DNA of 64,000 bases, taken from Rhizobium sp. ZPR4 (GTDB lineage: Bacteria; Pseudomonadota; Alphaproteobacteria; Rhizobiales; Rhizobiaceae). Positions 2,608-8,960 of the stretch are shown here, in pieces (positions within the stretch are counted from its first letter, which is position 1; every line of letters starts with the position of its first letter). The stretch is from assembly GCF_040215725.1 (NCBI RefSeq), contig NZ_CP157967.1, positions 558,001 to 622,000 on the forward strand, given 5' to 3'. A model generated the notes under the pieces. That model worked only from the letters and a program-made list of their open reading frames with translations, was not told the origin of the DNA and did no database searches. Position numbers and translations under genes: made by a program.

Positions 2608-2684
2608 CGGAGTGTAGCGCAGTCTGGTAGCGCACCACGTTCGGGACGTGGGGGTCGAGTGTTCGAATCACTCCACTCCGACCA
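2608..2684 (+). tRNA. tRNA-Pro (anticodon CGG)
   Basis: A 77-nt cloverleaf. The acceptor stem CGGAGTG pairs with CACTCCG, the anticodon stem CCACG/CGTGG encloses loop TTCGGGA with anticodon CGG, the T loop reads TTCGAAT, and the discriminator A is followed by an encoded CCA (2682-2684). It reads CCG proline codons, which are frequent in this GC-rich genome. Confidence 0.95.
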
Positions 2685-3862: not shown

Positions 3863-4360
3863 ATGTTCGTAGAAAAAGCGATCCGATATGACAGCAAGCC
3901 CGAATTCTATCGCGAACTGGCCGATCAATTGAAAGCCCTGCTTGATGGCGAGCATGATCCGATTGCCAATGCGGCGAATACGTCCGCGCTGATCTTCCAG
4001 ATGCTGCCGGATCTCAACTGGGCTGGCTTCTACTTTTTGCGGCAGGATAGCGAGCTTGTGCTCGGGCCATTCCAGGGCAAGCCGGCCTGCGTGCGCATTG
4101 CCGTCGGCCGCGGCGTCTGCGGCACGGCGGTCGAAAGGGCCCAGTCGGTCCTCGTCGAGGATGTGCACGCCTTTTCCGGACACATTGCTTGCGATGCCGC
4201 CTCGCGGTCGGAGCTGGTCGTGCCGCTCTTTCGCGATGGAAAGGTCTTCGGCGTCATCGATCTCGACAGCCCGCTTCCCGGCCGCTTCGATGGTGACGAT
4301 CAGGCCGGCATCGAGGCGCTTGCCGCTATTTATACCGGTTCGAGCGAGATGCATGGGTAA
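3863..4360 (+). CDS. msrC: Free methionine-(R)-sulfoxide reductase, GAF type
   Basis: 165 residues forming a single GAF domain. Family members reduce free Met-(R)-sulfoxide using thioredoxin. The three cysteines of the family (E. coli YebR type) are present: Cys76 (KPACVRI), Cys86 (GVCGTA) and Cys110 (HIACDA), in the surroundings expected for the active site. The length is typical. An AAGGG run 9 bases before the ATG supports the start. It is followed by msrB and msrA, which repair protein-bound and S-form sulfoxides, so the three together cover the main methionine sulfoxide substrates. Confidence 0.9.
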
Positions 4361-4470
4361 GGCGCGGGAAGGGCAGAGCGTCACGCAGTCGTGATCGATA
4401 TGGCAAATCGATCGCGCGATGCCTATATTGGCCCTGCAACCACTCCCTTAGCGCTGATCGAGCTTCATCC

Positions 4471-4517
4471 GGCCTTCCCGAGTCCTCAGTGAGGACGTCA
4501 GGCCAAGCTCGGAAGGC
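4471..4517 (+). promoter_or_regulatory. Structured 5' leader of msrB
   Basis: The msrC-msrB gap holds nested inverted repeats. GTCCT/AGGAC (4482-4496) lies inside a long-range pairing of GCCTTCC-CGAG (4472-4482) with CTCG-GAAGGC (4508-4517). A competing pair GGCCT (4471-4475) with AGGCC (4500-4504) shares bases with the long stem. No T tract follows. It may be a folded mRNA leader; its function is unknown. Confidence 0.4.
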
Positions 4518-4542
4518 GTGCCAAGGGGCAAGGAGAACAACA

Positions 4543-4992
4543 ATGGGCAAATACAGCAAGACGGCAGAGGCAGTAGCCAAGCTCACCCCTGAGCAGTATC
4601 GCGTGACGCAGCAGAGCGGCACGGAACGTCCCGGCTCCGGCGAATATCTCTACAACAAGCAGTCCGGCATCTATGTCGACATCGTCTCGGGCGAGCCGCT
4701 TTTTGCCTCCGCCGACAAGTTCGATTCCGGCTGCGGCTGGCCGAGCTTTACGAAACCGATCGAGCCCGCCAATGTCAGCGAATTGACCGACATGTCGCAC
4801 GGCATGGTGCGCGTCGAAGTGCGCTCGGCCGGTGGCGACAGCCATCTGGGCCATGTCTTCCCGGACGGCCCGATCGATCGCGGCGGCCTGCGCTATTGCA
4901 TCAATTCCGCCTCGCTTCGCTTCGTGCCGCGTGACCGCATGGAAGCAGAGGGCTATGGTGCCTACATCGATCAAGTGGAGGATGTAAGATGA
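4543..4992 (+). CDS. msrB: Peptide-methionine (R)-S-oxide reductase MsrB
   Basis: 149 residues from the ATG preceded by AAGGAG; a longer frame starting at 4489 lacks a ribosome site. MsrB reduces protein Met-(R)-sulfoxide. The resolving Cys64 lies in SGCGWPSF and the catalytic Cys119 in [11 protein letters not shown], with the family [10 protein letters not shown] motif between them. The two CxxC zinc-binding pairs of the zinc form are missing, so this is the zinc-free class. The stop overlaps the msrA start by 4 bases, implying translational coupling. An unusually structured leader lies upstream. Confidence 0.95.
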
Positions 4993-5516
4993 CAACGGAA
5001 CGTGCAGTTCTCGCCGGCGGTTGCTTCTGGGGCATGCAGGATCTCATCCGTCGCTATAACGGCGTTATCTCGACGCGCGTTGGCTATAGCGGCGGCGATG
5101 TCCGCAACGCCACCTATCGCAACCATGGCACCCATGCCGAGGCGATCGAGATCATTTTCGACCCGCAGAAGATCAGCTTTCGCGATCTGCTGGAATTCTT
5201 CCTCCAGATCCACGATCCGAGCACGCGCAACCGCCAGGGCAACGATGTCGGCTTGAGCTATCGCTCGGCGATCTTCTACACCAGCGAAGAGCAGAAGCAG
5301 GTCGCCTTGGATACGATCGCCGATGTCGACGCTTCCGGCCTGTGGCCCGGCAAGGTCGTCACCGAGGTCACACCGGTCGGCGACTTCTGGCAAGCCGAGC
5401 CGGAGCACCAGGATTATCTGGAGCGCTATCCGAACGGCTATACCTGCCACTTCGTCCGGCCGGGCTGGAAACTGCCCCGCCGGCAGGCCGACGCAGTGCA
5501 GCGCGCGGCCTCCTGA
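4989..5516 (+). CDS. msrA: Peptide-methionine (S)-S-oxide reductase MsrA
   Basis: 175 residues. MsrA reduces protein-bound and free Met-(S)-sulfoxide. The catalytic Cys12 is in the GGCFWG signature close to the N-terminus, and the conserved YSGG and THAEAIEI stretches follow. A second cysteine, near residue 159 in NGYTCHF, is the candidate resolving residue. It overlaps msrB by 4 bases and the next gene by 1 base, so msrB, msrA and that gene look like one operon. Confidence 0.95.
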
Positions 5517-5929
5517 TGAAAGAATCGGCCGCCATCGGCCGGCTGAGTCTTTTCCTCGGCGCATGGGAGGTGAAGCGGCGGATCATCGATCGCTTCAACC
5601 GTTCCCTGATCACATTCGAAGGACAGGCGTTTGTTACGCCTGTCCAGTTCGAGGAATACGGCGATACGCGAAGCGACCACGCGACGCTGAGAAGCAGCCG
5701 CACCTATCGACTCGATCACGCAGACGACGATCTCGTCGTGCATTTCCCCAATCTTTCGGAATTCATTCGCATCGGTGAAGGCGCCTCGCAGCGCGTCACC
5801 CATCATTGCAGTCCCGATCTCTACCGGGGCCGCCTGTTCTTTCGCTCGCCCGATGCCTGGGCCGAGATGTGGCATGTGCGCGGGCCGAGAAAAAACTATC
5901 TGAGCCTCGCGCACTACCGACGTATTTGA
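5516..5929 (+). CDS. DUF6314-like small protein
   Basis: 137 residues. The ATG overlaps the msrA stop (TGATG), which fixes this start over a longer upstream frame. The sequence begins with a short helix followed by LFLGAWEVKRRIIDR and a series of alternating beta-type stretches ending in WAEMWHVRGPRKNY, a pattern I associate with the DUF6314 family (lipocalin-like barrel prediction). No catalytic residue is evident. Its coupling to msrA suggests co-expression under oxidative stress, but no role can be stated. The family name is from memory of the pattern. Confidence 0.65.
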   Translation: MKESAAIGRLSLFLGAWEVKRRIIDRFNRSLITFEGQAFVTPVQFEEYGDTRSDHATLRSSRTYRLDHADDDLVVHFPNLSEFIRIGEGASQRVTHHCSPDLYRGRLFFRSPDAWAEMWHVRGPRKNYLSLAHYRRI

Positions 5930-5960
5930 CCCGAACCTGTTTCCCGAATGGGAGACGGTG

Positions 5961-7043
5961 TTAGCGCGCCTGACGCCGTGCCCGGATAGCCTTTGCCAGA
6001 TCTTCCAGCGTGCGGACCGAGGTCGGCCAGTCGATGCAGCCATCGGTGATGCTCTGGCCATAGACCAGCGGCTTGCCGGGCACGAGATCCTGGCGGCCAG
6101 CCACCAGATTGCTCTCCATCATCATGCCCTTGATCCGCCGGTCGCCGGCTGCAACCTGCTCTGCGACTGAGGTGACGACGAGCGGCTGATTTTCCGGATT
6201 CTTGCTGCTGTTGGCATGGCTGGCGTCGATGATGATGCGCGGCTCAAGCCCGACCTTGAGGGACTGTTCCGCTGTCGACTGCACGCTTGCGGCATCATAG
6301 TTGGGCTCTTTGCCGCCGCGCAGGATGATATGGCAGTCCTCGTTGCCGCGGGTGGAGGCGATCGCTGCAAGCCCTTCCTTGGTCACGGCCGGGAAGTGAT
6401 GCGGCTGCGATGCCGCAACGATCGCGTCAAGCGCGATGCGCACGTCACCATTCGTGCCGTTCTTGAAGCCGACGGGGCAGGAGAGGCCCGATGCCAGCTG
6501 CCTATGCACCTGGCTCTCGGTCGTCCTCGCGCCAATCGCGCCCCAGCTGACCAGGTCGGAAATGTACTGAGGCGTGATCGTATCGAGATATTCACAGCCC
6601 GCCGGCAGGCCGATCTCGTTGACATCGAACAGCAGCTTGCGGGCGATGCGCAGTCCTTCCTCGATGCGGTAGCTGCCGTCGAGATGCGGATCGTTGATGA
6701 GACCCTTCCAGCCGACAGTCGTGCGCGGCTTCTCGAAATAGACGCGCATGATGATTTCGAGATCGTCGGCGAAGCGGTCGCGCTGTTCCTTGAGGAGTGC
6801 TGCATATTCGTGGGCCGCAGCCGGATCATGGATGGAGCAGGGGCCGATCACGACGATCAGTCGGTCGTCCTCGCCGTGTAGGATGTTGTGAACGGCATTG
6901 CGGGCGCCGCTAACGGTCGCCGTCACGGCCTCGTCGCGGGGAATTTCATCTATGATCCGAGAGGGCGGCGTCAGCGCCGTGATCTCGACAATGCGCAGGT
7001 CATCAGTGGAATTCAACACGGTATCGGTTCCTTTTGGGGTCAT
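5961..7043 (-). CDS. aroG: 3-deoxy-7-phosphoheptulonate (DAHP) synthase, class I
   Basis: 360 residues. The enzyme condenses phosphoenolpyruvate with erythrose-4-phosphate, the first step of the shikimate pathway. Class I hallmarks are IGPCSIHD, VYFEKPRTTVGWKG, GARTTESQVHR, GFKNGTNG, IIDASHANS and the C-terminal TDGCI, and the length is typical. The ATG at 7043 has no clear ribosome site because the bases before it are a terminator hairpin and T tract. An alternative GTG at 7019 has AAGGA about 9 bases upstream and may be the real start. The leader carries an apparent Phe/Tyr attenuator. Confidence 0.93.
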   Translation of the reverse strand: MTPKGTDTVLNSTDDLRIVEITALTPPSRIIDEIPRDEAVTATVSGARNAVHNILHGEDDRLIVVIGPCSIHDPAAAHEYAALLKEQRDRFADDLEIIMRVYFEKPRTTVGWKGLINDPHLDGSYRIEEGLRIARKLLFDVNEIGLPAGCEYLDTITPQYISDLVSWGAIGARTTESQVHRQLASGLSCPVGFKNGTNGDVRIALDAIVAASQPHHFPAVTKEGLAAIASTRGNEDCHIILRGGKEPNYDAASVQSTAEQSLKVGLEPRIIIDASHANSSKNPENQPLVVTSVAEQVAAGDRRIKGMMMESNLVAGRQDLVPGKPLVYGQSITDGCIDWPTSVRTLEDLAKAIRARRQAR

Positions 7044-7054
7044 ACCGTGGCGAC

Positions 7055-7081
7055 AAAAAAGCCGCCAGGTAGACTAGCGGC
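7055..7081 (-). terminator. Attenuator terminator before aroG
   Basis: On the minus strand an 8-bp stem (GCCGCTAG with CTGGCGGC, one G-U pair in RNA) and loop TCTAC are followed directly by six T. The T run ends 11 bases before the aroG ATG. A strong intrinsic terminator this close to a start codon can only act on the aroG transcript itself, as expected for attenuation. Confidence 0.75.
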
Positions 7082-7114
7082 TGGTTCGGGTCTTTGCTGT
7101 CGTGTCTCTTTTAA

Positions 7115-7189
7115 CTACGCACAGGCCCGCCTCCGCTGAGAGCAGCGGTACGAATAAAATCGCGCGGCATATGCGAAGGTCAAAGACAT
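7115..7189 (-). CDS. Putative Phe/Tyr leader peptide of aroG (24 aa)
   Basis: A 24-codon ORF between the presumed promoter and the terminator. It holds two Phe and three Tyr codons, with FYSY at residues 11-14, directly before the hairpin at 7133-7148 (CCGCTG/CAGCGG, loop CTCT), followed by an arginine-rich end. The second arm, CAGCGG, can also pair (AGCGG with CCGCT) with the 5' arm of the terminator. This gives the classic 1:2, 2:3, 3:4 arrangement. Stalling at the Tyr/Phe codons would free arm 2 to form the antiterminator. The ribosome site is weak (AGAGAC). Inferred from sequence only. Confidence 0.65.
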   Translation of the reverse strand: MSLTFAYAARFYSYRCSQRRRACA

Positions 7190-7380
7190 GAGTTGTCTCT
7201 ACGATAAAAAATGCCTGGTGTCGATGAGGGAGAATGATAATTGAAGAGGCCGCGCTACGGCGTCGCCATTCGGCAGCCAATTATCTGTCCGCCGGGCTTC
7301 CGCTCGCGTTTCGCCGAAGTCTCCTGCCAAAACAATCCCTGATCGGCCCTCAGAAAAATGACTAACCCCTGCCTCGGAAA

Positions 7381-7414
7381 GACCGGCCCGACTTCGCTGG
7401 AAGTAAGGCCGGCC
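7381..7414 (-). terminator. Hairpin terminator after the porin gene
   Basis: A long, nearly perfect stem of about 15 bp (GGCCGGCCTTACTTC with GAAGTCGGGCCGGTC, one mismatch) and loop CAGC lies about 50 bases beyond the porin stop. Only a short TTT follows, so termination may be less than complete. The stretch 7190-7380 shows nothing else. Confidence 0.6.
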
Positions 7415-7461
7415 CCCATCCGATCAGGGGTCAAGTCAGATCAGATCTCGTAAACGAGCTA

Positions 7462-8523
7462 TTAGAAGCTGCGATGGAAGCGCAGCACGCCCGACCACTG
7501 GTCCTGATTGATGGAGTCCCAGTTGGTGTAGGATACTTCCGGCGTGATCTGGAAGTTCTTGACCGGGGTGAACTTGAGGTTCGCCGTGGCGGCAAAGATC
7601 TTCGAGTCGGTGTAGGCAACCTGAGCGTTTGCCTGCAGCTTTTCGTTGATCGGAACGGTTACGCCGCCCCAGGTAGCCCAGTCGCCCCAGCCGATGTTCT
7701 TGGCCGGACCTGCACCGTTCGCGCTGGCGTACTTGTTCAGCTGGTCGCCGTCGGTGTTCCAGCCAGCCATGAGGAAGGCCTTGAAGATGCCGAAGTCGGC
7801 ATCGACGCGAGCCTTGATGGCGCCTTCTTCGACGATGGAGTCATAACCGCCGACGATCTTGAAGCCGAAGTTGCCGGCCTTGTAACCGAGACCCGCAACG
7901 ACGTCCGGCGTGTAGTGGTTGGTGCTGCTGCGGCCGTTTACGCCCGTGGCGCCAGCGCCGGAGTTGCTGTCTTCGAGCGAGACGACAGCGGTGAAGCCGT
8001 TGCCTGCGTCGTAGTTGTAGGTCAACTGGTTGAGTTCGTACGGACCGTCATAGACCACGTCGTCGTTGATGACGCCGCCAGCATAACCCGTGTAGAGGTT
8101 GTACTGAGAGTCGAGCTTACCGACGGTGAAGCCGCCGAGGCTGATGTTGGCGAAGATCAGCTTGGTGGTGGTCGCGCCGCCATCGTTCCAGTCGAAACGC
8201 AGAACGGTGTTGGTCTTCAGCGCACCGTATTCCGTGTCGGATGCAGTGTCGACGGTCAGGTGTGCACGGCTGCGCCAGTAGGTGCCGTTGGTCGAGCGCG
8301 GGTTGTAAGCGTCGTACCACTTGCCTTCGGTACGAACATAACCGCCGATCTTGAGGCAGGTTTCGCTGCCCGGGATGAAGAAGTAACCAGCGCCGAATGC
8401 GTCGCAGATGCGGACATATTCCAACGGTTCCGGCTCGGCAGCTACGATAGCGTCAGCCGCCTGGGCGCCAGAAACTACTGCGAGAGCAGCAGCGGAGCCG
8501 AGAAGAAGGCTCTTGATGTTCAT
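7462..8523 (-). CDS. ropA: Outer-membrane porin, RopA/Omp2 family
   Basis: 353 residues from the ATG at 8523, preceded by GGAG; this start leaves a clean signal peptide ending at SGAQA|AD. The family forms trimeric 16-stranded general diffusion porins of Rhizobiales. Typical features are the N-terminal EYVRICDAFGAGYFFIPG segment with a cysteine pair (residues about 42 and 57), KIGGYVR, many alternating beta strands, and the terminal phenylalanine (RFHRSF) used for outer-membrane assembly. It stands alone with a long AT-rich upstream region and a strong hairpin downstream, consistent with a monocistronic, highly expressed gene. Confidence 0.93.
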   Translation of the reverse strand: MNIKSLLLGSAAALAVVSGAQAADAIVAAEPEPLEYVRICDAFGAGYFFIPGSETCLKIGGYVRTEGKWYDAYNPRSTNGTYWRSRAHLTVDTASDTEYGALKTNTVLRFDWNDGGATTTKLIFANISLGGFTVGKLDSQYNLYTGYAGGVINDDVVYDGPYELNQLTYNYDAGNGFTAVVSLEDSNSGAGATGVNGRSSTNHYTPDVVAGLGYKAGNFGFKIVGGYDSIVEEGAIKARVDADFGIFKAFLMAGWNTDGDQLNKYASANGAGPAKNIGWGDWATWGGVTVPINEKLQANAQVAYTDSKIFAATANLKFTPVKNFQITPEVSYTNWDSINQDQWSGVLRFHRSF

Positions 8524-8960
8524 AAATACTCCAATCCAATATAGATTGGGCACAGGCAATCGCGCCGAAAAATCGACGTGCCTTAACCCTATCCCTGTTT
8601 AAAAACCCCGACTCGGGAGAAACGGGCCCCACCCGCTTCTGGTCGCCATTAAAGACGAATTCCTGCAAAGTTATATGATATATTTTTCTGCAGATGACTT
8701 TTTCGTGAAATTTAAGTTTTAGTTGCAAGAAAGCAACATATACAAACAAAGATGGTAAGTACTGCATAATATTGGCTGCCGAATAGTCATTTTGGGGTAG
8801 AATATGGAGTTTTATTTTATTCGAATATTAGTTGATAATATTTATCGTCACGCGGTCAGCCAGACGCAATTGCCCATTTGATTGTTTATACGGCGATCAT
8901 CACCCTCCCGCGGCAGCTGAGGGGTGTATATTCGAGCGATCGCTGGCTCTTGCGGTATGG
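8524..8960. other. Long AT-rich region upstream of the porin
   Basis: 437 bases between the porin start and the next gene. The part from about 8640 to 8870 is markedly AT-rich for this genome (runs such as TTATATGATATATTTTT). It probably holds the porin promoter and leader. I could not fix a -35/-10 pair, and no RNA gene is recognised. Confidence 0.4.

Follow-up and report, generated by a model that had tools for sequence, protein, structure and literature searches.

A predicted transcription attenuator with an aromatic leader peptide upstream of a class I DAHP synthase gene in Rhizobium and other Proteobacteria

On the minus strand of the window, i.e. the whole 64,000 nt stretch of Rhizobium sp. 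ZPR4 DNA analysed here, a short leader ORF (7189–7115), a hairpin formed by its arms 1 and 2 (1:2 hairpin, 7148–7133), a terminator (7082–7060) with a U-run and a class I DAHP synthase gene follow each other in this order (Table 1). DAHP synthase opens the shikimate pathway, and most of what is known about its control comes from enteric bacteria and corynebacteria. The gene product reached 512.1 bits against TIGR00034 (aroFGH; cut-off 173.2). Since it scored 533.8 bits against the NCBIfam AroG model, i.e. below the cut-off of 568, and 475.5 bits against the NCBIfam model of the Trp-sensitive AroH, i.e. just above the cut-off of 463, the name aroG is used loosely here. The same genome also encodes a class II DAHP synthase, as well as a second PF00793 protein (frame of 301 aa), which we infer to be a KDO-8-phosphate synthase. 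The real start of aroG is probably the GTG rather than the upstream in-frame ATG, since, by eye, AAAGGA precedes the GTG and the counterpart of the ATG in the related locus L010 lies in another frame than the GTG. The terminator had been placed 11 bases before the start codon; it is indeed there, while the gap to the gene becomes larger if the GTG is the start. Upstream of the leader lies a gene judged by eye to be porin-like (7462–8526, minus strand; no NCBIfam match), with a GC-rich inverted repeat behind it.

Table 1. Features of the aroG leader region, in coordinates of the window
Feature	Position	Strand	Basis or remark
Predicted -35 element TCGACA	7219..7224	-	GAC[AT] spacing in alpha-like leaders
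Weak predicted -10 element TAGAGA	7196..7201	-	17 nt after the -35 element, 6 nt before the leader ATG; positional inference, poor consensus match
Leader ORF, 24 codons, MSLTFAYAARFYSYRCSQRRRACA	7115..7189	-	ATG at 7189, stop ends at 7115; probably leaderless
Putative regulatory codons UUU UAU UCG UAC (F11 Y12 S13 Y14)	7148..7159	-	Aromatic cluster kept in relatives
Arm 1, CCGCUG	7143..7148	-	Sequence and fold
Arm 2, CAGCGG	7133..7138	-	Able to pair with arm 1 or arm 3
Predicted antiterminator stem	7074..7138	-	Fold: AGCGG:CCGCU base, CGGG:CCCG middle, apical hairpin; -21.4 kcal/mol
Arm 3, AGCCGCUAG, 5' arm of terminator	7074..7082	-	Pattern scan
Arm 4, CUGGCGGCU, 3' arm of terminator, then U-run	7060..7068	-	Pattern scan
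Class I DAHP synthase gene (aroG), probable GTG start at 7019	5961..7019	-	PF00793, TIGR00034; upstream in-frame ATG at 7043

The aromatic codons of the leader ORF are F5, Y7, F11, Y12 and Y14, and the elements from which the original prediction had started, i.e. a 24-codon ORF with FYSY just before a hairpin at 7133–7148, are all present. The 1:2 hairpin is predicted to have 6 bp (-8.2 kcal/mol, z -3.86) and lies inside the second half of the ORF, while the terminator is predicted to fold into a 9 bp stem with the loop UCUAC (-14.6 kcal/mol, z -4.34). A pattern scan of positions 5500–8500 gave five terminator-like sites against 2.2 expected, with the aroG-leader terminator having the most pairs. 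Throughout the 64 kb of the window, seven ATG ORFs of 10–45 aa carry at least four F/Y/W in eight residues, and the aroG leader is the only one of them followed, within about 110 nt, by a U-run behind a perfect stem of 8 bp or more. Random sequences of the same length (30, Markov-1) held on average 4.0 aromatic short ORFs, and none of these came with a terminator.

The motif GAC[AT] begins 33–37 nt before the leader ATG in 40/40 alpha-like leaders, including that of the window (L059, L069 and L023 were left out of this count), and a Shine-Dalgarno-like motif was found in one of 42 alpha-like vs nine of 40 beta-like leaders. Taken together, the constant -35-like spacing and the missing Shine-Dalgarno sequence suggest that the transcript begins at or near the leader ATG and that the ORF is leaderless. 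A simple sigma-70 scan found no promoter at the window leader.

For comparison, 80 GTDB loci and five whole-genome loci were collected, of which 84 had enough upstream DNA, i.e. the window (L081) and 83 relatives, many of them near relatives; L074, with only 54 nt upstream, was left out of the counts. One of the locus sets used to check the conservation of the ORF and its aromatic codons comprised 46 loci from 44 genomes. At all 84 loci, an aromatic-cluster short ORF and then a terminator precede aroG; the ORF and its aromatic codons, on whose conservation the attenuator hypothesis depended, are thus kept across the relatives. Leaders were assigned to an alpha-like (43) and a beta-like set (41) by leader similarity and record title, the titles of L030, L013 and L045 being vague or doubtful. 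The clusters of the close Rhizobium relatives read RFYSYR, RFYWYR or RFYYFR, other alpha-like leaders typically have FWYFSYP or FWYFSYDSS, and the typical beta-like cluster is FYFYFSYSSP. Phe, Tyr and Trp all occur in the cluster of 33 of the 43 alpha-like leaders, the window being one of the ten without Trp, while the 41 beta-like clusters contain Phe and Tyr only (35), all three residues (five) or Phe and Trp (one). Therefore, the description as a Phe/Tyr leader is right for the window and too narrow for most alpha-like leaders. Codon 13 is Ser in the window and Trp at the same place in the relatives L007, L082 and L095.

Codons 10–14 are nearly fixed at the nucleotide level in the Rhizobium clade, as would be expected if termination were constitutive or tuned to another signal and the aromatic codons were a by-product of conserved RNA sequence. 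Between clades, however, the nucleotides vary and the codons change while the residues remain aromatic (FYSY, FYWY, FYYF, FWYFSY, FYFYFSY), and L010 carries YF in place of the SY of its kin, which makes this alternative very improbable.

The window's family also holds a second AroG type (65–66 % identity) in genus g73 (L085, L119, L122, L160, L162, L164, L172 and L173), with a Bradyrhizobium-like WYF...SSLAAGG leader instead of the RFYSYR type, and the AroG gene may have entered this family twice together with its leader. Many beta-like leaders share a conserved GGTTCACGTAG just past the leader stop codon, as seen in alignment A2 (beta-like leaders without L015, L019, L038, L040, L075 and L080 of the 41).

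The pairing between arm 2 and arm 3, on which an antiterminator would depend, was examined in alignment A1, which holds 40 leaders (39 distinct) after L004, L042 and L062 had been dropped from the 43 alpha-like ones. Standard pairs occupy 91.1 % of the cells of the arm 2:3 helix vs 18–63 % when the helix is slid by up to three columns. Paired changes, i.e. the covariation that the original prediction had proposed to look for, are found at two positions of this helix: pair 45–114 is GC in 28, AU in ten and unpaired in one sequence, and pair 48–111 is GC in 37, AU in one (L053) and unpaired in one. At both positions arm 4 retains its G and pairs by wobble; therefore, the change in arm 2 follows that in arm 3, as an antiterminator demands. 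The two positions probably reflect two evolutionary events, while the ten AU cells of pair 45–114 may go back to a single one. Both the number of double-change cells and the covariation score of A1 exceed all 500 shuffles, in contrast to the number of pairs with a double change, which is not above the shuffles (284/500 shuffles). The outer pair 44–115 fails in 16 of 32 sequences, and the arm 1:2 pairs in the register of the window fail in many relatives, above all in Bradyrhizobium.

Within the Rhizobium clade, the helices of the predicted antiterminator are broken in few places across 11 sequences, and double changes do not occur. The bare arm 2:3 helix of this clade has 5 bp and is no better than shuffles (P=0.34 for the window), while bare complementarity between the two arms reaches P<0.05 against shuffles in 51 of the 84 leaders. 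A partition function for the stalled-ribosome state gives 0.55 for the window vs 0.48 for shuffles, with weak values throughout the window clade and stronger ones in other alpha-like and beta-like leaders. Once arm 4 is included, equilibrium favours the terminator in the window clade; therefore, the timing of transcription would matter.

The whole RNA from arm 2 to arm 3 (7138–7074) is predicted to fold at -21.4 kcal/mol (z -2.85; 2/200 shuffles as good), as compared with -14.6 kcal/mol for the terminator, and the CCCG immediately 5' of arm 3 belongs to this predicted stem. The estimate of an antiterminator of only some 5–6 bp therefore describes the bare helix well and underrates the predicted three-part stem, which is longer. 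In the corresponding folds of all 84 leaders at least half of arm 3 is paired with arm 2, in agreement with the proposed ability of a second arm to pair with the 5' arm of the terminator; the fold is more stable than the terminator in 78 leaders and has z < -1.5 in 68. Because the arm 2 motif, and hence the start of the folded region, had been picked by the analyst, the whole procedure was repeated on shuffled spacers, where an equally stable fold with arm 3 paired arose in 2/100 cases for the window, and at most 5/100 were as good for 74 of the 84 leaders. Fold prediction and the paired changes at two positions thus point to a predicted antiterminator that is mutually exclusive with the terminator.

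How firmly the leader is tied to aroG was assessed with R1, a covariance model built from alpha-like leaders. AroG of the window's type is found in 48 of 347 genomes of the order, and R1 matches all 48 at E≤1e-4, on the same strand and 8–48 nt before the AroG match. Sequences from at least three of the 48 (G000, G029 and G073) went into the model, and others may overlap with it. The only other match at this threshold (G173, 36 bits) was rejected, being a terminator behind a cold-shock-like gene. In the window's own genome R1 has a single strong match, the window leader (E=2.6e-18), and five weak ones (E=0.014–0.85) that were dismissed by eye as hairpins or terminators. Among the latter is a trpL-like leader (L090, G000:C1:2155285-2155396; E=0.59), in which the trpL-like ORF ATGGCTTTGAACAACATTGCAGTTTGGTGGTGG is followed by a GCCGCC/GGCGGC hairpin and a U-run. 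A search with the pattern ATHTGGTGGTGG gave no match, and a looser pattern gave 26, of which one was the trpL-like ORF.

This association bears on two other views of the leader. The porin-like gene lies upstream on the same strand, so that the terminator could in principle belong to an upstream transcript unrelated to aroG, with the leader ORF there by chance; given that the leader stays with aroG in all 48 genomes and that no ORF–terminator pair arose in the 30 random sequences, we consider this extremely improbable. A role mainly in trans, with attenuation of aroG secondary, might be assigned to the leader RNA or the 24-residue peptide on the model of rnTrpL/peTrpL of Sinorhizobium meliloti, whose trp attenuator is described as freeing a leaderless small RNA and a peptide, both with trans functions; the aroG leader, too, is predicted to yield a terminated RNA, of about 135 nt. 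However, the N-terminal third of the peptide differs from one close relative to the next and the leader adjoins aroG in 48/48 genomes, and the leader therefore fits a role in cis; a function chiefly in trans appears unlikely, and less remote than either the by-product or the upstream transcript.

The attenuator proposed here had been regarded as a rhizobial solution, a view that does not hold, since AroG of the window's type is rare in the window's own family (5/151 genomes, own genome counted) and the leader extends to other Alphaproteobacteria as well as to Betaproteobacteria and one more family, f85. In a sample of the phylum, 216 of 378 genomes had an AroG match, and 39 upstream regions from 37 of the 216, picked by family and hence not at random, were read. 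An ORF with at least four aromatic residues in eight was found in 19 of the 39 regions, and 15 were judged leader-like, i.e. f85 with nine of nine best AroG copies (for example MQARTSFYFYFWFSSPAEER; terminator by simple scan in 7/9), f119, f108, f88 and f60 with one each and f55 with two. The ORFs of L207, L222, L224 and the Trp-rich L226 were judged to be chance occurrences. No aromatic ORF was seen in 20 of the 39 regions, including one f113 genome, a second f108 genome and members of f80, f82, f83, f95 and f118, and at L204, L205 and L224, whose families we took as enteric, no leader-like ORF with a terminator was found upstream of AroG. The model built from beta-like aroG leaders (R2) matches 71/378 genomes at E≤0.001; since many of these matches, of which part was followed up, are weak and apart from AroG, R2 is not a clean detector. 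It also matches a leader ORF with a terminator at L225 (G662, C23:107780-108400), which we take to be pheM of the pheST attenuator and which is useful as a positive control.

Based on the ORF, the arms, the terminator, their conservation and their adjacency to aroG, all of which are seen in the sequence, we predict that the aroG leader is a ribosome-mediated transcription attenuator (probability about 0.9). The original prediction of this mechanism is thus supported, in particular by the conserved ORF and terminator and by the comparison of arms 2 and 3, while the start site, translation, stalling, termination in the cell and the response to Phe and Tyr are inferred from sequence. Transcription would start at or beside the leader ATG, with translation proceeding independently of a Shine-Dalgarno sequence. 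If charged tRNA-Tyr and tRNA-Phe were abundant, the ribosome would pass codons 11–14, whereupon arms 1 and 2 would pair, or a ribosome at the stop codon would occupy arm 2, leaving arms 3 and 4 to form the terminator and transcription to stop at about position 7055. If charged tRNAs were scarce, the ribosome would stall at F11, Y12 or Y14 and mask arm 1, so that arm 2 and the following sequence could pair with arm 3 and the CCCG on its 5' side, which would block the terminator and let aroG be transcribed.

A stalled ribosome covers about 12 nt downstream of its A site. The distance from the last cluster codon to the core of arm 2 is 10–14 nt in 62 of the 84 leaders, including 13 nt in all 12 Rhizobium-clade leaders, 19–23 nt in 21 leaders, of which 18 are beta-like, and 6 nt in a single leader, a spacing that would let a stalled ribosome mask arm 1 and yet free arm 2. 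In the window, a ribosome stalled at Y12 or Y14 would sit on arm 1 and keep clear of arm 2, while one stalled at F11 would cover arm 1 only in part. Since the spacing thus puts the Tyr codons 12 and 14 in the best place to mask arm 1, the window leader may sense Tyr more than Phe.

It is tempting to speculate that in most alpha-like leaders (33/43 sampled), with their adjacent Phe, Tyr and Trp codons, a single attenuator reads the tRNA pools of all three amino acids at the common first step, a tentative proposal to which we give somewhat less than an even chance. If it were true, such a pan-aromatic leader would do the work that enterics split among feedback-sensitive DAHP synthases and TyrR/TrpR, and it could be retuned through single codon changes, such as that between Ser in the window and Trp in the three relatives named above.

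Attenuation of a DAHP synthase gene has a precedent in Corynebacterium glutamicum, where aroR, encoding a leader peptide with Phe-Tyr-Phe, precedes the DAHP synthase gene aroF (Neshat et al. 2014, as cited in PMC11802643 and PMC4046766). Transcription of aroF rises on Phe limitation, and the response is reported to be to Phe and not to Tyr (PMC11802643, PMC4046766). The aroG leader resembles this system, as described there, in having an aromatic leader peptide ahead of a DAHP synthase gene, and it differs in belonging to another phylum and, in many proteobacterial members, in longer clusters, often with Trp, and in GGCGG/CCGCC arms. Because attenuation of a DAHP synthase gene has already been reported in C. 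glutamicum, the proteobacterial aroG leader is a known kind of element found in another phylum.

For Escherichia coli, the original prediction had set repressor control of the DAHP synthases against attenuation. In E. coli, TyrR and TrpR also couple DAHP synthase to the aromatic amino acids, by repression; for C. glutamicum, attenuation of a DAHP synthase gene is on record. The E. coli pheL–pheA and pheM–pheST systems likewise combine attenuation with a leader ORF, which is rich in Phe; unlike the aroG leader, however, they sense Phe and control pheA or pheST instead of a DAHP synthase gene. Another rhizobial attenuator is that of S. meliloti trpL–trpE(G) (rnTrpL), whose leader ORF is described as leaderless, a trait that the aroG leader ORF may share; unlike the aroG leader, it has Trp codons and controls trpE(G).

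None of the Rfam 15 families matched the aroG leader at gathering score, either in the window or at 15 of the related loci, and a relaxed Rfam search of positions 6990–7260 returned only a snoRNA match (E=4.6) and no Phe_leader. No report of a proteobacterial aroG leader peptide was found in those parts of the open-access literature that were covered, and an earlier description is possible. The predicted attenuator is ordinary in its mechanism and unusual in its target and breadth. It occurs in Proteobacteria of the alpha- and beta-like sets and in at least one other family and is, as far as tested, not in Rfam 15. A conserved aroG attenuator would explain how the entry flux is matched to the supply of aromatic amino acids, and it offers a clean case for studying the joint sensing of two or three tRNA pools by a single leader. 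For practical use, a covariance model is ready, and the leader is a simple target in strains built to produce aromatic compounds.

Elsewhere in the window, a tRNA gene (2608–2681, plus strand) is the sole Rfam match at gathering score. Three adjacent plus-strand ORFs at 3863–5516 are, as we presume by eye, a GAF-type free methionine sulfoxide reductase, MsrB and MsrA, and could form a cluster for the repair of oxidised methionine.
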